From Gammaproteobacteria bacterium (lineage in GTDB: Bacteria; Pseudomonadota; Gammaproteobacteria; GCA-001735895), in NCBI GenBank assembly GCA_021767985.1, contig JAASSH010000021.1:1-10766 (forward strand): a stretch of 10,766 bases of DNA, given 5' to 3'. The first letter of the stretch is position 1. Each line of letters begins with the position of its first letter. Positions 1 through 10,766 of this stretch are shown one piece after another. The position numbers and the translations under genes were made by a program. The notes below the pieces were generated by a model, which was given only the letters and a program-made list of their open reading frames with translations, was not told where the DNA came from and made no database searches.

Positions 1-711
1 ATGATAACCCTCGGGCGGCACGATTACTCCGCCCGAAGCGAGAATCGGCTCGGCGACGAAAACCGCGCAGTTTTCCGGGCCAACTTCGGCACTCATGTTT
101 TCCAGGTTAGCGACGCATTGATCGAGAAAATCGGCATCCGACATATCCGCCGGCTTGTAGAGCGGATGCGGCGCCTCGACGTGGTGCACCAGGTGGGATA
201 CCATATCGAGATTAGTCTTGTCGCGCTCCTTGCCGGACACGCTGCCACCGAGATAAGTGCTGCCGTGGTAACCCCGCTTGTGCGAAATAATCTGCTTCTT
301 GCTCGGCTTACCGCGCATGTTGTTGTAGAAATGCACGAAACGCAGCGCCGAGTCGACCGCGGTCGAGCCGCCCGTGGTAAAGAACACGTGGTTCAGGTCT
401 CCCGGTGACTGTTCGGCGAGCTGCGCGGCGAATTCCGCCGCGGGCCCGGTCGTCATCGACCAGGGCGACACGTAGGTCAGCGCCATGATCTGATCGTAAA
501 CCGCCTGCGCGATTTCCTCGCGCCCGTGGCCGACATTGACACACCACATGCCGGCGGGTGCATCGAGCAGGCGATTGCCCTCGCTATCGTAGACATAGAC
601 ACCCTCCCCCTTGTCCAACAGCGTGCGTTCATGCTTTCCAATCTTGACCATGTCATCCCAGGGATGAATGAACAGGTTGTCGTGCTGCTTGAGTTCTGCT
701 GACGTGCTCAT
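1..711 (-). CDS. Class III (omega-type) PLP aminotransferase, C-terminus cut by window edge
   Basis: The reverse strand is open for 237 codons from an ATG at 711 to the window edge, with a strong GGAGG Shine-Dalgarno at 719-723. The N-terminal half fits a PLP-dependent class III aminotransferase: a LLDAPAGMWCVNVGHG block (residues ~48-63) matches the LxDxxAGLWCVNxGxG signature. A phosphate-binding turn GGSTAVD lies at 114-120, YHG at 148-150 and VAEP at 219-222. The catalytic lysine would lie beyond the edge, so activity cannot be judged. It is a clear paralogue of the aminotransferase at 8347-9732, but its phosphate turn is GGSTAVD rather than GSEAND, marking a different subfamily. It is divergent from the TetR-type regulator, so it is a plausible regulatory target and may transaminate a polyamine or downstream omega-amino acid. 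The substrate is inferred from context only. Confidence 0.9.
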   Translation of the reverse strand, partial: MSTSAELKQHDNLFIHPWDDMVKIGKHERTLLDKGEGVYVYDSEGNRLLDAPAGMWCVNVGHGREEIAQAVYDQIMALTYVSPWSMTTGPAAEFAAQLAEQSPGDLNHVFFTTGGSTAVDSALRFVHFYNNMRGKPSKKQIISHKRGYHGSTYLGGSVSGKERDKTNLDMVSHLVHHVEAPHPLYKPADMSDADFLDQCVANLENMSAEVGPENCAVFVAEPILASGGVIVPPEGYH

Positions 712-748
712 GCCTTCTCCTCCGATAGCGGGCGTGATAAAGACTAAA

Positions 749-776
749 ATTATATTTATTTTTTCTAATTTTGCAA
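749..776 (-). promoter_or_regulatory. Candidate sigma-70 promoter for the minus-strand aminotransferase
   Basis: On the reverse strand a perfect TATAAT (749-754) lies 16 bp downstream of TTGCAA (771-776, 4 of 6 to TTGACA). It sits in the AT-rich gap between divergent genes, and the implied transcript start leaves a leader of roughly 30 nt before the ATG. AT-richness makes chance -10 matches easier, so this is a candidate only. Confidence 0.5.
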
Positions 777-803
777 TTAATTTCAATGATATATGAACTT
801 ACA

Positions 804-833
804 TTGACTATTTGCTCAATAACTTTTAAAGTT
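804..833 (+). promoter_or_regulatory. Candidate promoter with overlapping 13-bp palindrome, for the TetR-type regulator
   Basis: TTGACT (804-809) and TAAAGT (827-832) are 17 bp apart, a reasonable sigma-70 pair 30 bp upstream of the regulator start. The -10 is embedded in a perfect palindrome AACTTT-T-AAAGTT (821-833). A palindrome over the -10 of a TetR-family gene is the usual arrangement for autorepression, but binding is inferred, not shown. Confidence 0.45.
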
Positions 834-862
834 CGGGCATTCCCGGATACAGGTTAGAGCCA

Positions 863-1510
863 TTGTCAGCGAACATTACCGAAAAAAATTTCGCCAGCCG
901 CAATCGGAAAAGTCAGCGCGAGTTTCGCAAACGCCAGCTGATCGACGCCACCATCGACTGCATCGACAAACTGGGGATTTCCCAGACCACGCTGGCCCGG
1001 ATTGCCGAGCGCGCCGGCATCTCGCAGGGTAACGTCGTCTTCTATTTTCACAGCAAGGACGAACTGCTCGAACAAACGCTGCACTTTCTTAACGACGAAC
1101 ATACCAGTAACTGGCAAAAGGCGCTCGCCGATGCCGGCCCCGACCCGTGGTCCCGGCTGCAGGCATTAATCAAAGCCTCGTTCGCACCCCAGGTTTTCAA
1201 CCGCAAGAAAATCAGCGTCTGGTACGCCTTTTGGGGCGAATCCCGCTCGCGACCGAAATACATGCGCGTTTGCGGTGCGAGCGATCGCGCATTTTCCGAC
1301 ACCATTCTAAAGCTGTGCCAGGCAATCGAATCCCGGGACGGGTCTGGCCTGAGCCCGCAAACCGCGGCGCAAAGTATCGAAGGTATGATCGACGGCATGT
1401 GGCAAAGCTTCCTGCTCGGATCACCGGGTTTCAAGCGGGCCCAGGCGATTAGCACGATATTCGAATTGCTTGGCAACATCTTCCCGCAGTCACCGAGGAT
1501 TGAAGCATAA
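863..1510 (+). CDS. TetR/AcrR-family transcriptional regulator, BetI-like
   Basis: A 215-residue protein of normal TetR-family length. The N-terminal helix-turn-helix spans residues ~24-68, with recognition region TLARIAERAGISQGNVVFYF (43-62) and the following HSKDELL typical of the family. The C-terminal half contains WYAFWGESRSRPKY, which resembles the ligand domain of BetI-type choline/betaine repressors. The start is TTG at 863: there is no in-frame ATG or GTG between it and the upstream stop TAA at 827, and the reading begins the right distance before the HTH. The ribosome site is weak (AGG at 851-853). It stands between the divergent aminotransferase and the importer genes, so it is likely a local regulator of polyamine genes. 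E. coli uses the unrelated PuuR for this, so the ligand (polyamine or intermediate) is a guess. Confidence 0.9.
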   Translation: MSANITEKNFASRNRKSQREFRKRQLIDATIDCIDKLGISQTTLARIAERAGISQGNVVFYFHSKDELLEQTLHFLNDEHTSNWQKALADAGPDPWSRLQALIKASFAPQVFNRKKISVWYAFWGESRSRPKYMRVCGASDRAFSDTILKLCQAIESRDGSGLSPQTAAQSIEGMIDGMWQSFLLGSPGFKRAQAISTIFELLGNIFPQSPRIEA

Positions 1511-1518
1511 GCCGTGAT

Positions 1519-1557
1519 CACAAAAATAGTTTTGTGGTAATATCCGGCGAAACTATT
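1519..1557. promoter_or_regulatory. Overlapping inverted repeats upstream of the importer genes (candidate operator)
   Basis: Just after the regulator stop there is a perfect inverted repeat CACAAAA-ATAG-TTTTGTG (1519-1536). A second perfect inverted repeat uses part of the same sequence: AATAGTTT (1525-1532) with AAACTATT (1550-1557), spaced by 17 bp. The two share bases, so as RNA hairpins they would exclude each other; as DNA they could be adjacent operator half-sites. The first lacks the GC-rich stem expected of a strong terminator for the regulator gene. Confidence 0.4.
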
Positions 1558-1603
1558 GATGTGACAGGCTATTCCTCATTATGCTTATGGGAATATGTTT
1601 CAG

Positions 1604-1669
1604 TTGACTGTCGTCGTTAAGCCGCGGTACAGATTGAAAACACAATAATTAGTTTGGCATTCAAAACTA
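1604..1669 (+). promoter_or_regulatory. Leader of the importer operon: weak promoter candidate and TAGTTT/AAACTA inverted repeat
   Basis: A TTGACT at 1604-1609 is followed after 18 bp by TACAGA (1628-1633), a weak sigma-70 match. Closer to the gene, TAGTTT (1650-1655) and AAACTA (1664-1669) form an inverted repeat with 8-bp spacing, the same hexamer pair as in the repeat at 1527-1555. A bulged hairpin (ATTCC/CAT at 1571-1579 pairing with ATGGGAAT at 1587-1594) also lies in this leader. No element is decisive, but the importer promoter must lie in 1511-1680. Confidence 0.3.
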
Positions 1670-1695
1670 GAGAATTACTTCCGAGGAGAAGACAA

Positions 1696-2799
1696 ATGAA
1701 AGACACTGCTTTTAAATCCAGCCTGATTGGCTTAACTACTGCCGCTCTGCTGACAGGTGCGACGGTCGCGTCGGCCGCAGGCAAGCTCAACGTCAGCAAC
1801 TGGGCCGAGTACATGGCGGAGGACACCATCGAAAACTTCGCCAAGGAATACGACGTCGAAGTAACCTTCACGCCCTACGACTCGGTAGAAGCGATCGATT
1901 CCAAGTTGCTCGCCGGCAACTCGGGTTACGACGTGGTATCCCACGCGGCTTCGCAGGCTGCACGCCTGATGAAGGGCGGCAATATTCTTCGCAAGATCGA
2001 CAAGAGCAAGCTGCCAAACCTGAAACACATGAGTGCCGACGTCATGGCCCAGGTCGGTCAAAAGTGGGATCCCGGGCATAACTATTTCGTGCCCTACATG
2101 TGGGGTACCCATGGCGTAACCTATAACAAAGAACTGGTTATGCAGACCTACCCGGACGCGCCCATCGGGGATATCAGCATGATCTTCGACCCGAAGCATA
2201 TGAAGGAACTGGCCAAGTGCGGCGTTTCATTCCTCGACTCCCCTACCGACGTCATCCCGATGGCACTGGCTTACCTCGGCATGGATCCCGATTCAACCAA
2301 CAGGGCGGATTACCAGAAAGTCGAAGACATGTTGAAAAAGGTTCGTCCGTATATCAAGACTTTCGACAACTACGCCTATCAGCGCATGCCTGAAAAAGAA
2401 TTCTGTGTCGCGGTTACCTGGGGACCCGATGGACTGCTGGCGATGTCAGGCGCCGAAGAAGCCAACACCGGGGTCAAGCTGGATTTCTTCCTGCCTGCGA
2501 TTCCGAACTTCTGGGTTGACGGATGGGTTATCCCGGCCGACGCCAAAAATATCGAAAACGCACACCTGTTCATGAATTACCTGATGCGTCCGGAGGTTGC
2601 CGCGAATGACAGTAACTATACCTGGTACGCGACCGCGAACAAGGATGCGATTCCGATGATCGACGAAGCGGTGACCTCCAGTCCCGCCGCCTTCCCGACC
2701 GCCTCGCAGGTTTCAACCATGTACACGCTCAATCCCCTGCCCCCCAAGGCGGAGCGGGTACGCACCCGGACCTGGACCAACTTCAAGGCCGGCAACTAG
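1696..2799 (+). CDS. potF: Periplasmic polyamine-binding protein (PotF/SpuD type) of an ABC importer
   Basis: A 367-residue extracellular solute-binding protein, close to the usual length of PotF (about 370). The ATG at 1696 is chosen because GAGGAG lies at 1683-1688 and the product then begins with a standard signal peptide: KDTAFK, a hydrophobic core, and an ATVASA cleavage region near residue 27. Family landmarks include LNVSNWAEYM (31-40), CGVSFLDSP, YLGMDPDST, VTWGPDG, the DGWVIPADAKN strand, NYLMRPEVA and the C-terminal RVRTRTW. The tryptophan and aspartates that grip the polyamine in PotF (W..D and D before the PADA motif) appear conserved, but the first pocket motif reads WAEY, closer to PotD's WTEY than to PotF's WSDY. 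It delivers putrescine or spermidine to the permease below; which one cannot be decided by eye. Confidence 0.95.
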   Translation: MKDTAFKSSLIGLTTAALLTGATVASAAGKLNVSNWAEYMAEDTIENFAKEYDVEVTFTPYDSVEAIDSKLLAGNSGYDVVSHAASQAARLMKGGNILRKIDKSKLPNLKHMSADVMAQVGQKWDPGHNYFVPYMWGTHGVTYNKELVMQTYPDAPIGDISMIFDPKHMKELAKCGVSFLDSPTDVIPMALAYLGMDPDSTNRADYQKVEDMLKKVRPYIKTFDNYAYQRMPEKEFCVAVTWGPDGLLAMSGAEEANTGVKLDFFLPAIPNFWVDGWVIPADAKNIENAHLFMNYLMRPEVAANDSNYTWYATANKDAIPMIDEAVTSSPAAFPTASQVSTMYTLNPLPPKAERVRTRTWTNFKAGN

Positions 2800-2809
2800 T
2801 AACAAGAAG

Positions 2810-2838
2810 CCGGGGTGATCATCACCCCGGTTTTTTTT
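2810..2838 (+). terminator. Strong rho-independent terminator between binding protein and ATPase genes
   Basis: A perfect GC-rich stem CCGGGGTG (2810-2817) / CACCCCGG (2823-2830) with a 5-nt ATCAT loop is followed directly by eight T residues (2831-2838). It begins 11 nt after the binding-protein stop and ends 24 nt before the ATPase ATG. It probably lets only part of transcription continue, giving more binding protein than membrane complex; no separate strong promoter is visible between it and the ATPase gene. Confidence 0.9.
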
Positions 2839-2862
2839 CGTTGGCATATCACGGGGGAAAAT

Positions 2863-4008
2863 ATGTCACAGACGACAGACCACTCCGACCGTCCCTGGCT
2901 CGACCCTGAAGCCGAACCCTTTATCAAGGTACAGAGCGTCAGCAAGCATTTCGGCGACTTCACCGCGGTCGATAGCGTCGATCTCGATATTTACAAAGGC
3001 GAGCTGTTCTGCCTGCTCGGCGGCTCGGGCTGCGGCAAGACCACGTTGCTGCGCATGCTCGCCGGATTCGAGACCCCCTCCTCCGGATCGATCCTGATCG
3101 ACGGTGTCAACATGAACGACGTCCCGCCCTACGAACGACCGGTCAACATGATGTTCCAGTCTTATGCGCTGTTTCCGCACATGACGGTGGAAAGCAATGT
3201 CGGCTACGGCCTGAGGCGCGATGGAGTTGCTAAAACCGAGATCGAACAACGGGTCGAGGAAATGCTGGCGATGGTCGAACTGACCCAGTTTCGCAAGCGC
3301 AAACCGCACCAGTTGTCCGGCGGCCAGAAACAGCGCGTGGCACTGGCACGCGCCCTGATCAAGCAACCCAAGATGCTGTTACTCGACGAGCCGCTGGCGG
3401 CGCTCGACAAGCGCCTGCGGGTGCAAACCCAGTACGAGTTGATGAATATCCAGGATAAACTCGGCGTCACCTTCGTCGTCGTAACCCACGACCAGGAAGA
3501 AGCGATGACGCTGTCGACCCGGATCGCGGTCATGGATGTCGGGCGCCTGCAGCAAATCGGCACCCCGACCGAAATATACGAATTCCCGACTTCGCGCCTG
3601 GTGGCCAATTTCATCGGCAACGCAAACATGTTCGCGGGTCGTATCACTGAAAACGGCACCGATCACGTCGTCGTCGAGAGCAAGGACCCGACCTGCAATT
3701 TCTATATCGACCACGGCGTATCGATCTCGGAAGGCACTAAGGTCTGGGTTTCGTTGCGGCCGGAGAAGATCAGAATTTCCAAGCAGGCACCCGAAGATTC
3801 CGGCACCAACTGCGTCAAGGGCATGGTAAACGACATCGGCTACCTCGGCGGCACTTCGACCTATCGCGTGCTGGTTGGCGACGAACACATCGTCGAAGTG
3901 ACCTCACCCAACCTGAATCGGCCCAAGGACGGAAACCCGCCGATCGACTGGGACGAGGAAGTATACCTGAGCTGGGAAGCGTCGAGCTCGGTGGTGCTGA
4001 CCAAATGA
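2863..4008 (+). CDS. potG: Polyamine ABC importer ATP-binding subunit (PotG/SpuF type)
   Basis: A 381-residue ABC ATPase with all nucleotide-binding elements: Walker A GGSGCGKT (53-60, glycine where most have GPSGCGKT or GASGCGKS), Q-loop Q98 in MMFQSYALFPHMTV, signature LSGGQ (150-154), Walker B LLLLDEP-type ending D174-E175, D-loop ALD (179-181) and switch H208. The C-terminal ~120 residues form the TOBE-type regulatory domain (LRPEKI, IGYLGGTSTYRV, and a final WEASSSVVLTK close to the PotG end). The ATG at 2863 is preferred over an upstream in-frame ATG at 2815, which lies inside the terminator; GGGGG at 2854-2858 supplies a ribosome site. It powers import with the two permeases, whose genes follow by 4-nt overlap. 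PotG is favoured over PotA from the PYERPVNMMFQSYALFPHMTV segment and C-terminus. Confidence 0.93.
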   Translation: MSQTTDHSDRPWLDPEAEPFIKVQSVSKHFGDFTAVDSVDLDIYKGELFCLLGGSGCGKTTLLRMLAGFETPSSGSILIDGVNMNDVPPYERPVNMMFQSYALFPHMTVESNVGYGLRRDGVAKTEIEQRVEEMLAMVELTQFRKRKPHQLSGGQKQRVALARALIKQPKMLLLDEPLAALDKRLRVQTQYELMNIQDKLGVTFVVVTHDQEEAMTLSTRIAVMDVGRLQQIGTPTEIYEFPTSRLVANFIGNANMFAGRITENGTDHVVVESKDPTCNFYIDHGVSISEGTKVWVSLRPEKIRISKQAPEDSGTNCVKGMVNDIGYLGGTSTYRVLVGDEHIVEVTSPNLNRPKDGNPPIDWDEEVYLSWEASSSVVLTK

Positions 4009-4967
4009 GCATACCGGCAGAAGCGGTGACAGCAAGCGAAGCCGGCCTGAAGGCTCGAATACTGCATCGGCTCATGCGCCTGGCGCAGGATCGCTGGCGT
4101 ACCCTGGTGCTGTTCGTTCCATTCGCCTGGCTGCTGCTGTTTTTCCTGGCGCCGTTTTTCATCGTGCTGAAAATAAGCCTCGCCGAAACGATTATCGCCA
4201 GTCCACCGTTTACCCCGATGATCGAATGGGTCGATGCCGGCATCATGCACATCCGCGTGGTGATCGACAATTTCGCCTACCTGTGGGAAGACGATCTTTA
4301 TGCCAAGACCTATTTGAACTCGCTCAAGATTTCGTCGATATCCACTATTCTGTGCCTGCTGGTGGGCTACCCGATGGCTTACGCAATCGTACGCGCGAAC
4401 CATACCACCAAGCACGTCCTGTTGATGCTGGTTATCCTCCCGTTCTGGACCTCCTTCCTGCTGCGGGTTTACGCCTGGATGGGATTACTCGCCGACCAGG
4501 GTACGATCAACAACCTGCTGATCGCCATCGGTATCATCGACGAGCCGATGCGGATGCTCTACACCCCGTTCGCGGTCTATGTCGGTATCGTCTATACCTA
4601 CGTGCCATTCATGATTCTGCCGCTTTACGCGAACATGGAAAAACTCGACTGGACCCTGCTCGAGGCGGCGGCCGATCTCGGTGCCAGGCCAATGACGACG
4701 TTCTTCACCGTCACCTTGCCGATGACGATGCCGGGGATCATCGCCGGCTCGTTGCTGGTGTTTATTCCGGCAACCGGCGAATACGTCATCCCCGACCTGC
4801 TCGGCGGGGGTAATGTGCTGATGATCGGGCGCGTGCTTTACAACGAGTTCAACGCCAACATCGACTGGCCGGTAGCCTCGGCGGTTGCAATCGCACTGTT
4901 GCTGGTACTGGTACTGCCGATGATGCTTTACCAGCATATCCAGGCCAAAGAGGCCGAGTCCGAATGA
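4005..4967 (+). CDS. potH: Polyamine ABC importer permease (PotH/SpuG type)
   Basis: A 320-residue inner-membrane permease. The first transmembrane helix is at about 34-56 after a charged cytoplasmic N-terminus, followed by a periplasmic segment of ~50 residues and five more helices. The coupling EAA loop EAAADLGARP at 220-229 followed by TLPMTMPGI docks the ATPase. The LPFWTSFLLRVYAWMGLL segment is typical of the PotB/PotH branch. The ATG overlaps the ATPase stop as ATGA (4005-4008), implying translational coupling. It forms the heterodimeric channel with the next gene's product. Confidence 0.93.
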   Translation: MSIPAEAVTASEAGLKARILHRLMRLAQDRWRTLVLFVPFAWLLLFFLAPFFIVLKISLAETIIASPPFTPMIEWVDAGIMHIRVVIDNFAYLWEDDLYAKTYLNSLKISSISTILCLLVGYPMAYAIVRANHTTKHVLLMLVILPFWTSFLLRVYAWMGLLADQGTINNLLIAIGIIDEPMRMLYTPFAVYVGIVYTYVPFMILPLYANMEKLDWTLLEAAADLGARPMTTFFTVTLPMTMPGIIAGSLLVFIPATGEYVIPDLLGGGNVLMIGRVLYNEFNANIDWPVASAVAIALLLVLVLPMMLYQHIQAKEAESE

Positions 4968-5803
4968 ACAACCGCAGGCGTTCCTATTTTTTGATCACCA
5001 CCACCTGCTTCGGGATCGCGTTTCTGTACATCCCGATGATTCTGCTGGTCCTGTATTCGTTCAACAAGTCCAGGATCGTGCCCGTTTGGGGTGGCTTCTC
5101 CACCAAGTGGTACGGCGTATTGTTCGAGAGCGAGGAGGTCTGGGAAGCGGTCGCACTAAGCCTCAAGGTCGCCACCGTAAACGCCACTTTTGCAATGCTG
5201 CTCGGGACCCTGGCGGGTCTGGCGCTGGTGCGCTTCGGCCGCTTCCGGGGACGCACTCTGTTCACCGGCATGATTACCGCGCCGCTGGTGATGCCCGAAG
5301 TCATCACCGGCCTGTCACTGCTGCTACTGTTTATTACCCTGAAGGAATTCATCGGCTGGCCCGATCAACGCGGTTTTACCACCATCACGATCGCGCATAT
5401 CACCTTCTCCATGGCCTATGTCGCGGTCATCATCCAGTCGCGCCTGGCCGGCATGGCGCAAGATCTCGAAGAAGCGGCACAGGATCTCGGTGCCAAACCG
5501 TTCCGGGTGCTCACCGATATAACGTTGCCGCTGCTGGCGCCAGGCATGCTGGCGGGATGGCTGCTCGCGTTTACGCTGTCGCTAGACGACCTGATTATCG
5601 CGAGCTTCGTCACCGGGCCGGGCGCGGTGACGCTGCCGATACTGATTTACTCTCGCATCCGCCTGGGCTTGCGCCCCGACATCAACGCGCTCGCAACCAT
5701 CATCATCCTGGTTGTTGCAATCGGCGTACTGATCGCCGCCTGGGTCATGTTCCGCCAGCAAAGACAGCGTGAACTCGAACTCAAGATGAGCGAGGAAGGC
5801 TGA
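4964..5803 (+). CDS. potI: Polyamine ABC importer permease (PotI/SpuH type)
   Basis: A 279-residue permease, the PotC/PotI partner of the preceding subunit. The first helix spans about 9-31, with the family segment LLVLYSFNKS directly after. The EAA loop EAAQDLGAKP lies at 170-179, followed by ITLPLLAPGMLAGW, and the FTLSLDDLIIASFVTGPG segment is characteristic of this branch. Its ATG overlaps the previous stop as ATGA (4964-4967). It is the last gene of the importer run; a convergent gene follows after 56 bp. Confidence 0.93.
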   Translation: MNNRRRSYFLITTTCFGIAFLYIPMILLVLYSFNKSRIVPVWGGFSTKWYGVLFESEEVWEAVALSLKVATVNATFAMLLGTLAGLALVRFGRFRGRTLFTGMITAPLVMPEVITGLSLLLLFITLKEFIGWPDQRGFTTITIAHITFSMAYVAVIIQSRLAGMAQDLEEAAQDLGAKPFRVLTDITLPLLAPGMLAGWLLAFTLSLDDLIIASFVTGPGAVTLPILIYSRIRLGLRPDINALATIIILVVAIGVLIAAWVMFRQQRQRELELKMSEEG

Positions 5804-5841
5804 ACCTCAACAGGCTCCCCTCGTGGCGCTAAAAACTGGTT

Positions 5842-5856
5842 CTCCCCGGTGGGGAG
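5842..5856. terminator. Possible bidirectional hairpin between convergent genes
   Basis: CTCCCC (5842-5847) and GGGGAG (5851-5856) form a perfect 6-bp GC-rich stem with a 3-nt loop in the 56-bp gap between the importer permease and the convergent hydrolase. Neither side has a good T-tract (the minus-strand continuation has only a short TTTTT about 10 nt on), so it may be a weak or factor-assisted terminator for both genes. Confidence 0.4.
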
Positions 5857-5859
5857 CTT

Positions 5860-6780
5860 CTAGCCCGGATCGCGGCGCAGCGCCTGGCACATGCAGTGCA
5901 CCCCGCCGCCGCCGGGCGTGATCATCGATACGTCCGGATCGAAAACCTCCAGCCCGTGGGCGCGCGCCTTTTCTTTCAGCACCTGGCTTTTTTCCGGCAT
6001 TAAAACCCGGTCGTTACCGAGCGCGACCACGTTGCAGCCGAGATCGAGCGTATCCTGGAACGGCACCGAGACGATTTCGATGTTTTTCGACTTGAGCCAG
6101 GAGACTACCTCGGGGTCGGTCGACTCGAGGCAGACCGCCGCCAGCTTCGGCGCCAGCATCACCACCATCAGGTCGATATGCACGTAGAAAGGATCGAGGT
6201 CGGTCAGCATGACCTCCCAGCCCTCGGCTTCGAACCAGGTCTTTAGCTGCAGCGCCGATTGCTCCTGGCTGCGGCCCTCGTCGCCTTCCCAGCCGATCAA
6301 CACGGTACCCGGCTCGATGACGTTGAAATCGCCGCCCTCGAAGGATCCCGCGGTGACACAGTCGTAAATCGGGATCCCGAGACGTTGGTAGGTTTCGATC
6401 GCGCGAAAGTTTTCACCACGCCGCCACCAGTTCGCCATGCTGGAGATAATCGCGCCATAAGGCGTCATCACCGATGAGTCGCGCGCGAAAATCTGGTACG
6501 GCAGAACCGGGTCCGGTTCGTGCAAATGCACCTGCACGTCGGCCGACTGGTAGGCCGACACCATTTCCGCGTGTTGCCGCCGCGCGACATCCGCATCGAA
6601 TTCATAGCCGCGTCGAATACTTTTCTTGGACACCGAGCTGGTCTCGCGCCACCGGTAATTGTCGGCGGGACCGAGCAGCACGTCGCGCAGCACGCCGTAC
6701 TCGCTGTCGACACCCCAGTTTTCCAGCACGGGGGTCTGGCCACCCTGCCGCCGGGTTCGTAAACTGAAACTATCTGCCAT
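5860..6780 (-). CDS. Guanidino-group hydrolase/amidinotransferase superfamily enzyme (arginine/agmatine deiminase or DDAH-like)
   Basis: A 306-residue protein with the catalytic layout of the guanidine-modifying superfamily: FARD (98-101, the FxRD motif), FEGGDF (147-152, with E148/D151), H201 and D203 in YVHIDL, and nucleophile C296 in GGGGVHCMCQ near the C-terminus. The end resembles agmatine deiminase (GGGNIHC-type) more than DDAH, but the protein is shorter than typical agmatine deiminases (about 360-370) and is otherwise closer to proteins labelled arginine deiminase or dimethylargininase. The expected chemistry attacks a guanidino carbon via a cysteine-amidino intermediate, releasing ammonia or an amine. 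GGAGG (6784-6788) sets the ATG at 6780. It converges on the importer and is divergent from the gamma-glutamylpolyamine synthetase, so a role in turning a guanidino compound such as agmatine or arginine into a polyamine precursor is plausible but unproven. A second cysteine, C298, adjoins the nucleophile. Confidence 0.88.
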   Translation of the reverse strand: MADSFSLRTRRQGGQTPVLENWGVDSEYGVLRDVLLGPADNYRWRETSSVSKKSIRRGYEFDADVARRQHAEMVSAYQSADVQVHLHEPDPVLPYQIFARDSSVMTPYGAIISSMANWWRRGENFRAIETYQRLGIPIYDCVTAGSFEGGDFNVIEPGTVLIGWEGDEGRSQEQSALQLKTWFEAEGWEVMLTDLDPFYVHIDLMVVMLAPKLAAVCLESTDPEVVSWLKSKNIEIVSVPFQDTLDLGCNVVALGNDRVLMPEKSQVLKEKARAHGLEVFDPDVSMITPGGGGVHCMCQALRRDPG

Positions 6781-6802
6781 GATTCCTCCGCCAGCAGTAT
6801 TT

Positions 6803-6818
6803 CGACTTAATCAAGTCG
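6803..6818. promoter_or_regulatory. Inverted repeat in the leader of the guanidino hydrolase gene
   Basis: CGACTT (6803-6808) and AAGTCG (6813-6818) are perfect inverted arms around 4 nt. The repeat lies between the candidate promoter and the ribosome site of the minus-strand gene, so it could be an operator or an RNA hairpin. Short arms leave chance possible. Confidence 0.3.
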
Positions 6819-6826
6819 TTCCGGCG

Positions 6827-6855
6827 AGGCTATCCCCGGTTGCCGCCCATGTCAA
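6827..6855 (-). promoter_or_regulatory. Candidate promoter for the guanidino hydrolase gene
   Basis: On the reverse strand a perfect TTGACA (6850-6855) is followed after 17 bp by TAGCCT (6827-6832), a poor -10 match. The position gives a leader of about 40 nt. A strong -35 with a weak -10 is common at activator-dependent or weak promoters. Confidence 0.35.
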
Positions 6856-6892
6856 TTCAGGCGGCGCATTAACCCAAATCCGCATAGATAAT

Positions 6893-6943
6893 CGCAATTT
6901 GACTTTGCCTATTTTTGTGATCACAATTGCGCGGTTCGCAATT
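6893..6943 (+). promoter_or_regulatory. Candidate promoter and palindromic operators for the gamma-glutamylpolyamine synthetase operon
   Basis: TTGACT (6899-6904) and CACAAT (6922-6927) are 17 bp apart. The -10 overlaps a perfect 12-bp palindrome TTGTGATCACAA (6915-6926). Immediately after comes a second perfect palindrome, AATTGCG-CGGTT-CGCAATT (6925-6943), and a third CGCAATT copy lies at 6893-6899 on the other side. Three copies of one heptamer around a promoter strongly suggest binding sites for a dimeric regulator. An alternative promoter, TTGCGC (6927-6932) with TATACC (6950-6955), would place the palindrome between or over its elements. Confidence 0.5.
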
Positions 6944-7011
6944 CTCAGCTATACCTGGAACTACCAAACGGCCTGCATCCGGGCCCCGTCACAGGCACAA
7001 ACGGCATCTTA

Positions 7012-8337
7012 ATGAAAGACTGGATAGAACAGCACCAGATTACCGAAGTCGAGTGTATCGTCCCCGATCTCGCAGGCGCCGCGCGCGGCAAAATCATGCC
7101 CGCTTCCAAGTTTACCGACAGCACGACATTGCGCATGCCCAAGGCAATCTTCATGCAGTCGGTCACCGGTGAATATCCCGATAACTGGGAAGAAATCAAT
7201 CCGCTGGACGTCGACATGGTATTGCAGCCGGATCCGTACACGATTCGCCTGTTGCCATGGGCGCGCGAACCCTCCGCCCAGGTCATTCATGACTGCTACG
7301 AGATCGACGGTAGCCCGATCGAATTTTCGCCGCGTGGCGTACTGCGACGCGTGATCGATCTCTACCACGCCGAAGGCTGGAAACCGGTGGTCGCGCCGGA
7401 ACTCGAATTTTACCTGCTGCAGCCGAACCTGGATCCGAAGAATCCCCTGCTGCCACCGATCGGCCGTACCGGCCGGGTCGAGCGCAGCGGGCAATCGTTC
7501 AACATCGATGCGGTTAACGACTTCGATCCGATGTTCGACGACATGTATGACTTTTGCGAGGGCCAGGGGCTGGAGATCGATACCCTGATCCACGAGGAAG
7601 GCATGGGGCAGATGGAAATCAATCTGCTGCACGGCGATCCGCTGGAGCTGGCCGACCAGGCTTTCCTGTTCAAACGCACCGTACGCGAGGCGGCGTTGCG
7701 TCACGACCTTTACGCGACCTTCATGGCCAAGCCGATGGAGGGGCAACCCGGCAGCGCGATGCATATCCACCAGAGCGTCGAGGACCTGGAGTCGGGCGAG
7801 AATATTTTCTCGACCCCGGAAGGCATGCCCAACGAACTGCTGCTGAGCCATATTGCCGGCCTGCAGCGCTTCCTGCCCGAAGCGATGGCGCTGATGACAC
7901 CCTATGTCAACTCTTACCGCCGCATCGTGCGTGAAATGTCGGCGCCGATCAATTTCCACTGGGATTTCGACAATCGCACCACCGGGTTCCGCGTTCCGGA
8001 TAACAACCCGAAAGCGATGCGCGTGGAGAATCGTATCGCCTCGGCAGACGTCAATCCTTACCTGGCGATCGCGACGTCGCTGGCCTGCGGTTACATCGGC
8101 ATGAAACAGGGTCTTAAGCCCACCGAACCGCTGCAAAGCAGCGCCTACGACGAACCGATGCAGCTTTCACGCCACTGGTACGATTCTTTACAACGCCTCG
8201 CCGATTGCAAGGAACTCGGTGAGGTGCTCGGCGAAGCTTTCGTCGGCATTTATGTCGGCGTCAAGGAAGTCGAGTTCGATAATTTTCTAAACGTAATCAG
8301 TCCCTGGGAACGGGAGCACTTACTGTTAAAAGTCTGA
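7012..8337 (+). CDS. puuA: Gamma-glutamylpolyamine synthetase, glutamine synthetase family (PuuA/SpuI type)
   Basis: A 441-residue member of the glutamine synthetase superfamily, in the short class that ligates glutamate to polyamines or other amines rather than ammonia. The beta-grasp N-terminal domain includes VPDLAGAARGK (about 17-27). The catalytic domain has PELEFYLL, a GMGQMEINLLHGD metal-binding stretch, the ATP-site motif KPMEGQPGSAMHIHQS from K240, and RVENRIASADVNPYLAIA. It would make gamma-glutamylputrescine in the cytoplasm, the first step of the Puu route; the specificity (putrescine, spermidine or another amine) cannot be read. No Shine-Dalgarno stands before the ATG at 7012, although the reading frame and N-terminus fit the family. 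It heads a run with the aminotransferase, 9 nt downstream, and the truncated oxidoreductase. Confidence 0.92.
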   Translation: MKDWIEQHQITEVECIVPDLAGAARGKIMPASKFTDSTTLRMPKAIFMQSVTGEYPDNWEEINPLDVDMVLQPDPYTIRLLPWAREPSAQVIHDCYEIDGSPIEFSPRGVLRRVIDLYHAEGWKPVVAPELEFYLLQPNLDPKNPLLPPIGRTGRVERSGQSFNIDAVNDFDPMFDDMYDFCEGQGLEIDTLIHEEGMGQMEINLLHGDPLELADQAFLFKRTVREAALRHDLYATFMAKPMEGQPGSAMHIHQSVEDLESGENIFSTPEGMPNELLLSHIAGLQRFLPEAMALMTPYVNSYRRIVREMSAPINFHWDFDNRTTGFRVPDNNPKAMRVENRIASADVNPYLAIATSLACGYIGMKQGLKPTEPLQSSAYDEPMQLSRHWYDSLQRLADCKELGEVLGEAFVGIYVGVKEVEFDNFLNVISPWEREHLLLKV

Positions 8338-8346
8338 GGTGACATT

Positions 8347-9732
8347 ATGACCGAAGCAACCGCGATGGATATGAGCAATACCGAAAAGTGGCAGGATCTC
8401 GATAGCCACCATCTGCACCCGTTTACCAACCCGCACGATCTGCAGAAAAAGCCGGCACGCATCATCGAATCGGCCAATGGCGTATACCTGACCGATTCTG
8501 ACGGTAACGAATTGCTCGATATGATGGCGGGGCTATGGTGCGTCAACATGGGTTACGGCCAGAAAGACATGATCGAGGCGGCCTACCAGCAGATGCAGCA
8601 GCTGCCCTATTACAACGCCTTTTTCAAGACCACGACGCCCCCGGCGGCCGAGCTGTCGGCGCTGCTGGCGGAAGTAACCCCGGCCCACATGGACCATGCG
8701 TTTTTCACCAGCTCCGGATCGGAAGCCAACGATACCGTGCTACGTCTCGTCTGGCGTTACTGGGACATCCTGGGCAAGCCTGAAAAACGCGTCGTCATCA
8801 GTCGCAAGAACGCCTATCACGGCAGCAGTATCGCCTCTTCCAGCCTGGGAGGCATGGCGGACATGCACAAGCAGGGCGGGGTCATACCCGATATCGTCCA
8901 CGTGGAGCAGCCTCACTGGTTCGAAAAGCGCTGCGAGCTCGGCGTCGACCTCGACCGGGAAGAATTCGGACGCCAGGCGGCGCAATCGATTGCCGACAAG
9001 ATCGAGGAACTCGGCGTCGACAAGGTGGCCGCGTTCATCGCCGAGCCGATCCAGGGTGCGGGCGGGGTTATCGTGCCGCCGGACTCTTACTGGCCGGAAG
9101 TAAAAAAGATTTGCGAACACTACGGGATACTGCTGGTCGCCGACGAAGTTATCTGCGGTTTCGGCCGCACCGGGGAATGGTTCGGCACCGACTACTACGG
9201 TCTCAAGCCCGATTTGATGCCGATCGCTAAGGGCCTGTCATCGGGCTACCTGCCAATCGGTGGCGTCATGGTCGCCGACAAGATCATGAACGTACTGATC
9301 AACCAGGGCGGCGAGTTCAACCACGGTTATACCTACTCGGGTCACCCGGTGTGCGCGGCCGTGGCAATCGCCAACATCAAGCTGATGCAGCGTGAAAACA
9401 TCGTGCAGCAAGTACGCGAATCGACCGCGCCTTACCTGCAACGGCGGCTGCGTGAGCTCGGCGACCACCCGCTGGTCGGCGAAGTCCGCGGTGTCGGCAT
9501 GCTCGGCGCGCTGGAGCTGGTCAAGGACAAGGAAAACTACGTCAGGTTCGACAAGGATCTCGGCGTCGGCACCATTTGCCGGGAATTCTGCTTCAACAAT
9601 AACCTGGTGATGCGAGCGGTTGGCGACTCGATGATTATTTCGCCGCCGCTGATATTGCAGCAGGCAGATGTCGACGTTTTCGTCGAACGCGCCTGGCAAT
9701 GCCTCGATCTGACCCACAAAGCCGTCACCTGA
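8347..9732 (+). CDS. spuC: Polyamine:pyruvate-type class III aminotransferase (SpuC-like)
   Basis: A 461-residue, full-length PLP aminotransferase of fold type I, class III. The N-terminal WQDLDSHHLHPFTNPHDL is very close to the start of Pseudomonas SpuC, and MAGLWCVNMGYG follows. Also present are the phosphate turn SGSEANDTVLRL, YHGSS, VADEVICGFGRTG with cofactor-pyridine aspartate D266, and the Schiff-base lysine K295 in IAKGLSSGYLP. GAGGTG at 8336-8341 overlapping the upstream stop is the ribosome site for the ATG at 8347. It would transfer an amino group from putrescine or a related diamine to pyruvate, giving an aminoaldehyde, in parallel with the gamma-glutamyl route started by the preceding gene. 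Omega-amino acid:pyruvate transamination (beta-alanine or GABA) is the main alternative. Confidence 0.92.
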   Translation: MTEATAMDMSNTEKWQDLDSHHLHPFTNPHDLQKKPARIIESANGVYLTDSDGNELLDMMAGLWCVNMGYGQKDMIEAAYQQMQQLPYYNAFFKTTTPPAAELSALLAEVTPAHMDHAFFTSSGSEANDTVLRLVWRYWDILGKPEKRVVISRKNAYHGSSIASSSLGGMADMHKQGGVIPDIVHVEQPHWFEKRCELGVDLDREEFGRQAAQSIADKIEELGVDKVAAFIAEPIQGAGGVIVPPDSYWPEVKKICEHYGILLVADEVICGFGRTGEWFGTDYYGLKPDLMPIAKGLSSGYLPIGGVMVADKIMNVLINQGGEFNHGYTYSGHPVCAAVAIANIKLMQRENIVQQVRESTAPYLQRRLRELGDHPLVGEVRGVGMLGALELVKDKENYVRFDKDLGVGTICREFCFNNNLVMRAVGDSMIISPPLILQQADVDVFVERAWQCLDLTHKAVT

Positions 9733-9742
9733 TCGTAGCGGC

Positions 9743-9880
9743 ATGTCTTTGAAGCTGGTTCAGGACCGCAGCGACACCAGCGACTACCCGGAATCCTACT
9801 ACCAGGCCACCCGGAATCGCGAGCTGGAAACAAGCGCGCTGGATAAGAATAGATGCAATCATGAAAATGAGAGCACCTAG
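9743..9880 (+). pseudogene. puuB: 5' fragment of a gamma-glutamylputrescine oxidase-like FAD oxidoreductase, broken at ~9842
   Basis: An ATG 10 nt after the aminotransferase stop opens a frame whose first ~34 residues include DYPESYYQATRN and RELETSALD, the typical N-terminus of PuuB/OrdL-type FAD (DAO-family) oxidoreductases just before their dinucleotide-binding GxGxxG strand. That strand never appears: after codon ~34 the bases become retrotransposon sequence, and the frame stops at a TAG ending at 9880 after 45 codons. Gene order (synthetase, aminotransferase, oxidase) supports the identification. The assignment rests on a short segment, so the family is likely but not certain. A ribosome site is not obvious. 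The break looks like a sequence junction rather than mutation, so the intact gene probably exists in the true genome. Confidence 0.6.
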
Positions 9881-10766
9881 AACAGCAAAAGAATGCAAGA
9901 GTTTTTGTGGCGTTGTAAACTACTTGAGTTTGTTCTGCCCGGACTTACAAAAACTATTGCATAACATCTACGACCTAACAAAGAAGGGACGCCCGTTTTA
10001 TTGGTCATACTTCTATCATCAAAGGTACTTCAATGAGATTAAGAGGAGATTATGCAAGCCTCCTGTGTTGCATCTCCCAAGAGCATCAGGACGACTAATC
10101 CTCTACTCAGATACCAGCAGAAAACACGTTGGATCTTCTTTATGGCAAGTCCAAGATGGAGTCCATAGGTTGATAGGCTATGGCAGTAAAACTCTGCCCC
10201 TGGCCTGTCGAAATTACAGTGTCACCGAACTTGAGATGACGGGATTGCTATGCGCCATCAAGATGTGGAAACACTTGTTGAACAGAGCCGAGTTTGACAG
10301 TGTGGTAGACCACCAAGCCCTGGTATACATTATGAAGTCCAAAGAAGAGCCCAGCAGCCGAAGAATCATGAGACTGCTGGAGCACCTCTCCGAGTACAGT
10401 TTCAACCTGTACTACATGAAGGGAAAAGACCTGCTTCTGAGCGACTTCCTAAGCAGAACAGCCAGTGATACAGATGACCCACATTCGTGTATTCCCATTT
10501 CGTTCGGATTAGAACATGTGGAAAATGACTTTCACCAGCTATGGTCAGATAGAATTGACGAAGTAGTGCATACTTGCAATATCACAAGAGCACAAGCCAA
10601 GGCTCAGGGAATCAAAGTAGAGGAAGTACACAGTAAAGACAAAAAGCTACTACCAGAGTATAAACCTGAACATCAGGATAGAGCTAGGAAGAGAGTAGAG
10701 ACGCGTCAATCAGCTAAGCCTCCACCCACAGCTCCAAGCAAATCTGAACCCACTAGGTCCATTCTA
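9843..10766 (+). mobile_element. Fragment of a eukaryotic Ty3/gypsy LTR retrotransposon (pol)
   Basis: From about 9842 the base composition becomes AT-richer, arginine codons are mostly AGA/AGG, and no bacterial gene signals remain. The segment encodes the end of reverse transcriptase and RNase H of a Ty3/gypsy-type pol. Both ends are missing: polymerase catalytic domain, protease and gag upstream, integrase and LTR downstream. Ty3/gypsy elements belong to eukaryotes, so this stretch is foreign to the bacterial locus. The post-RNase H linker (ITRAQAKAQG, then a basic, proline-rich tail) recalls elements of marine invertebrates, a weak impression only. Confidence 0.88.
9843..10766 (+). CDS. 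Ty3/gypsy pol polyprotein fragment: RT thumb/connection, RNase H, linker
   Basis: One frame stays open for 308 codons to the window edge (first internal ATG at 9861). It begins at RIDAIMKMRAPRTAKECKSF and CGVVNYLSLFCPDL, the RT thumb region equivalent to the family's KxxAIxxMPxPxxxxExxSFLGMxNYL. RNase H follows with its acidic residues in place: D in YSDTS (10110-10112), E in TELEM (10233-10235), D in VVDHQAL (10308-10310) and D in SDFLSR (10443-10445). The first motif is unusual (SDTSRKHVGSSLWQ against the common TDASxxGxGAVLxQ). After about 10460 comes a charged linker without a recognisable domain before the expected integrase zinc finger. The intact frame and acidic residues argue for a young or active element. 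It is not translated from any bacterial signal here. Confidence 0.85.
   Translation, partial: MRIDAIMKMRAPRTAKECKSFCGVVNYLSLFCPDLQKLLHNIYDLTKKGRPFYWSYFYHQRYFNEIKRRLCKPPVLHLPRASGRLILYSDTSRKHVGSSLWQVQDGVHRLIGYGSKTLPLACRNYSVTELEMTGLLCAIKMWKHLLNRAEFDSVVDHQALVYIMKSKEEPSSRRIMRLLEHLSEYSFNLYYMKGKDLLLSDFLSRTASDTDDPHSCIPISFGLEHVENDFHQLWSDRIDEVVHTCNITRAQAKAQGIKVEEVHSKDKKLLPEYKPEHQDRARKRVETRQSAKPPPTAPSKSEPTRSIL

Follow-up and report, generated by a model that had tools for sequence, protein, structure and literature searches.

A gammaproteobacterial contig that ends in a Ty3/gypsy pol fragment, very probably a chimera

A polyamine gene cluster that stops within an oxidoreductase gene

The window, by which we mean the whole stretch of 10766 bases analysed here, is the entire contig C91 of an assembly that totals 2,963,187 bases in 590 contigs and is 71% complete and 2.8% contaminated. 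Most of it is occupied by bacterial genes, and its last 922 bases (9845-10766) are a foreign tail. The features are as follows.

1-9844, no strand assigned: genuine bacterial part, a gene cluster for polyamine uptake and breakdown (nucleotide identity to relatives L023 and L025; protein families)
1-711, minus strand: class III aminotransferase, cut by the contig start (protein family match)
5860-6780, opposite strand, within the 863-9732 cluster: dimethylargininase/arginine deiminase-like gene
8347-9732: second aminotransferase (96-98% identity to L024 and L023)
9743-9844, plus strand: start of a FAD-dependent oxidoreductase of the DAO family, 34 of 435 codons, cut at the seam (94% identity to L023, 85% to L024)
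9844-9846, no strand assigned: seam between the last base of bacterial homology (9844) and the first Ty3/gypsy codon (9846) (alignments; change point)
9846-10766, plus strand: internal Ty3/gypsy pol fragment comprising the end of the reverse transcriptase (RT), RNase H and the linker behind it (PF17917, PF17919, 7q5b, 4ol8, open frame, CpG)

Between 863 and 9732 the window combines PotFGHI-like uptake genes (PotF-, PotG-, PotH- and PotI-like transporter parts) with glutamine-synthetase-like, aminotransferase and dimethylargininase/arginine-deiminase-like genes, and the cluster also encodes a TetR/BetI-like regulator. Because most of the NCBIfam matches fall below curated cut-offs, these gene names hold at the level of the family. 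The genes are open and colinear with those of free-standing bacterial assemblies. The window's DNA is 90.5% identical to L023 (CAMYON010000099.1) over 2901-9844 and 84.2% identical to L025 over 2324-9822, and the second aminotransferase is 98% identical in L023 and 96% identical in L024 (JAACFA010000005.1). On these sequence relationships we judge the bacterium to be a gammaproteobacterium whose closest named relatives are metagenome-assembled Gammaproteobacteria. A search of the window for tRNA genes, as possible targets of insertion, gave none.

The oxidoreductase frame opens with an ATG at 9743 and can be followed for 34 codons, which match residues 1-34 of the L023 protein. Intact, that protein has 435 residues, with a PF01266 (DAO) domain at residues 40-391 (2.5e-71). 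The window's own 45-codon frame gives no Pfam match, and PF01266 together with an N-terminal FAD-binding motif is not found in it; the seam precedes the motif. The likeness to the DAO-family oxidoreductases of polyamine clusters thus consists of the 34 N-terminal codons, and the difference is that the gene is cut here, with residues 249-435 lying on another contig, C18, described below.

The first-pass annotation had suggested looking for the intact oxidoreductase in related bacterial assemblies, and it is present in close relatives. In a second set of relatives (n = 8), a long oxidoreductase frame is present in seven (truncated by a contig end in one of these), and the contig of the eighth ends 112 bases past the aminotransferase. 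The two sets of relatives are not independent, since L003 is probably the same record as L027, both contigs being 14025 bases long. The longest frame is not the oxidoreductase in L025 (233 bases only) or in L029 (a longer, unrelated frame); both align as DNA through the seam.

The seam and the retrotransposon fragment

The end of the bacterial homology can be placed precisely. DNA alignments to the two closest relatives, L023 and L024, and to L026 stop exactly at 9844, and those to the remaining five of the eight relatives, which are 74-84% alike, stop at 9819-9822. All eight relatives align as DNA across the position of the seam, where they carry GG behind a GAT/GAC codon and the window has AA. 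A two-model Markov analysis put the change point after 9842; positions 9838-9850 score within 2 log units of it. Local protein alignments to two Ty3/gypsy elements (L099 and L103) both begin at window base 9846.

Composition changes at the same place. GC drops overall from 0.60 to 0.445 and CpG o/e from 1.33 to 0.46; in 179 windows, each of 922 bases, ahead of the seam, the ranges are 0.499-0.619 and 1.07-1.41. GC3 is 0.48 in 9845-10766 and 0.70-0.79 before the seam. The CpG depletion of the piece is eukaryote-like. It is not proof by itself, because L103, which is plainly a gypsy element, has a GC of 0.60 and a CpG o/e of 1.23.

One frame of the piece is uninterrupted over 307 codons, as far as the contig end, and the other five frames contain 14-21 stops each. 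It matches RT_RNaseH (PF17917, 1.4e-20) and RT_RNaseH_2 (PF17919, 1e-19), as well as the Ty3 structures 7q5b (Gag-Pol chain, 2.6e-21, residues 817-1021) and 4ol8. Invertebrate animals commonly carry pol sequences of this type. The piece thus resembles the Ty3/gypsy (Metaviridae) LTR retrotransposons in being a pol fragment with RT_RNaseH, and differs from a complete element in that gag, protease, RT core, integrase and LTR are all missing from the window: the contig stops at 10766, before any integrase, and the place where the RT core would be expected is taken by the bacterial sequence before the seam. It is an internal fragment with which a bacterial contig ends. Within its coding part lies a 16-nt inverted repeat (9893-9908/9947-9962; 94% complementary, 38 nt apart), which is probably due to chance.

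Much of the first-pass annotation of this region stands. It had described an oxidoreductase frame running from 9743 to about 9842 and then giving way abruptly to retrotransposon sequence of different composition and codon use; the junction is real in the sequence, is now placed within two bases (9844/9846), and the composition and codon-use figures agree. The part called Ty3/gypsy RT from 9846 is indeed Ty3/gypsy pol, but it is the RNase H part behind the RT and not the RT core. The reported lack of a target-site duplication or LTR end also holds: when 9400-10766 was searched for repeats, no direct repeat turned up at the seam, and the break in the element falls midway through pol, beside the RT/RNase H boundary.

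LTR retrotransposons integrate with their junctions at the LTR ends and duplicate a few bases of the target. At this locus there is neither a junction at an LTR end nor a target-site duplication, and the second flank is absent. With its break in the element falling within pol instead of at an LTR, the seam is not the product of an ordinary integration.

Relatives of the piece

Neither the rest of its own assembly nor a further 19 genomes, of which 12 belong to the same genus, yielded a relative of the piece. In searches with the piece as protein, phage records gave no match, viral contigs gave five pattern matches and genome contigs gave 18, none of them a relative. Among plasmids a single record matched, at 31% identity, the Wolbachia sequence NZ_CP087956.1 (L099, 1-5332), which is itself suspect. 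This record, 5332 bases long, is listed as a 'complete plasmid' of the endosymbiotic Wolbachia of Corcyra cephalonica; of its four annotated genes, three encode retropepsin, reverse transcriptase and RNase H, arranged as in gypsy elements, and it looks like a retrotransposon of the host insect filed as a bacterial plasmid.

PF17917 matched in 2 of 369 genomes of the class, which are the window's own assembly and G034, so such sequence is foreign to the group. It matched in none of 14 control genomes. The match in G034 (L103; contig C9, 1-4421) is a gypsy element, end to end or nearly so, with an 831-codon pol frame, in a gammaproteobacterial genome listed as 100% complete; it is probably eukaryotic contamination of a kind that composition filters would miss. 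RVT_1 gave no match in the window's own assembly. A search of that assembly for Integrase_H2C2 carries no weight, since its controls were as blank as the assembly itself.

These results bear on whether the piece could be a prokaryotic reverse transcriptase that resembles Ty3/gypsy. Bacteria do carry reverse transcriptases, and the RVT_1 control was positive in 3 of the 14 named genomes. However, the matches of the piece are to Ty3 and to the RNase H families of LTR elements, and PF17917 has the narrow distribution just given; we consider this reading highly improbable.

Continuation of the interrupted gene on a second contig

We searched the window's own assembly with L024 DNA comprising the end of the aminotransferase and 6 kb downstream, and scored 40 of 88 candidates. 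The query recovered C91 itself (9718-9844, 88% identity) and contig C18 (5721 bases), which matches in three pieces at 88-91% identity. Turned round, C18 opens at oxidoreductase residue 249 and runs to the end of the gene, giving 187 residues that are 96% identical to L023. Past the end of the oxidoreductase it remains colinear with the downstream DNA of L024, for about 5 kb in all when residues 249-435 are included. In L024 coordinates the bacterial part of C91 ends at 4206 and C18 starts at 4847, leaving a gap of 640 bases. Judged by L024, C91 and C18 are neighbours; their facing ends therefore border a single assembly gap within one gene, with the retrotransposon piece on the C91 side of it.

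Among the 40 of 88 candidates scored in the assembly, none supplied the missing 640 bases at the expected identity. Eight further matches, spread over seven other contigs, have low identity or are short. One contig considered for the missing segment, C567, looks like a paralogue (73% over about 120 bases, 78% over 62).

Origin of the junction

We conclude that C91 is very probably a chimera in which 1-9844 derives from a gammaproteobacterial chromosome and 9845-10766 from a Ty3/gypsy element of a eukaryote in the same sample. The change of origin is abrupt and has no biological end structure, and the bacterial sequence continues elsewhere in the assembly. That the end of the interrupted gene lies on another contig of the same assembly points to an ordinary artefact rather than gene transfer. 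The assembly of the bacterium would have broken inside the oxidoreductase gene, 640 bases short of C18, and retrotransposon sequence would have been added to the contig there, by the assembler or through a chimeric read or library molecule. Reads from such an element may well be plentiful, because these elements are high-copy. Everything observed would be accounted for by a chimeric molecule in the library or by a contig wrongly extended at an end with low coverage. The first-pass annotation had favoured a chimera between a bacterium and an associated eukaryote, and this is now supported by the intact gene in relatives, by its 3' part and downstream DNA on C18 and by a piece that begins inside pol; its two alternatives, bacterial DNA in a eukaryote and an unusual insertion, gained no positive support.

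The insertion would place a Ty3/gypsy element, or a piece of one, truly in the bacterial chromosome, where it breaks the oxidoreductase gene. The seam does lie inside that gene and the next 640 bases, as judged from L024, were not recovered at the expected identity, so the empty site is unseen and an insertion could lie there. Against this, the edge of the piece is inside pol and not at an LTR, no target-site repeat accompanies it, and neither relatives of the piece nor RVT_1 were found in the assembly, nor relatives in the 19 other genomes, nor a match among phages, the sole plasmid match being a doubtful record. We regard such an insertion as very unlikely, and it would be similarly surprising if a eukaryotic pol fragment had been taken up by a bacterium living with a eukaryote and recombined into its chromosome, breaking a gene of polyamine catabolism. 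Least likely of all is that about 10 kb or more of bacterial DNA sits beside a retrotransposon in a eukaryotic genome: symbiont DNA is known to move into host genomes, but the genes here are open and colinear with free-standing bacterial assemblies, the cluster goes on in C18 of the same assembly, and 74 other contigs checked have bacterial composition.

A chimeric origin of C91 gives the observation value for quality control only. Left uncorrected, the contig end would assign a protein of a eukaryotic retrotransposon to a bacterium and could be mistaken for cross-kingdom gene transfer. A simple and reusable check is to look within the same bin for a contig that carries the true continuation. 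Foreign-kingdom contamination and chimeric contigs occur in public assemblies (for example Steinegger and Salzberg 2020, PMC7218494). C91 resembles such cases in carrying foreign-kingdom sequence, here at a contig end and behind an abrupt seam, and differs from them in that the seam is placed within two bases and the true continuation is located on another contig.

We also asked how far sequence of this kind extends in the assembly, using 81 of its 590 contigs besides C91, of which 74 were readable (397,420 bases), in 900-base windows (n = 3422). None of the 3422 windows had the composition of the piece, and CpG o/e fell below 0.80 in none. With no similar window among the 74 contigs, C91 is an isolated chimera within the sampled part. 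GC was below 0.46 in a single window (GC 0.45, CpG o/e 1.00). Both minima of the readable sample (CpG o/e 0.80, GC 0.45) occur near one end of contig C132 of the same assembly (L141, G000:C132), in the windows at bases 1 and 1501, and both deviations are mild.
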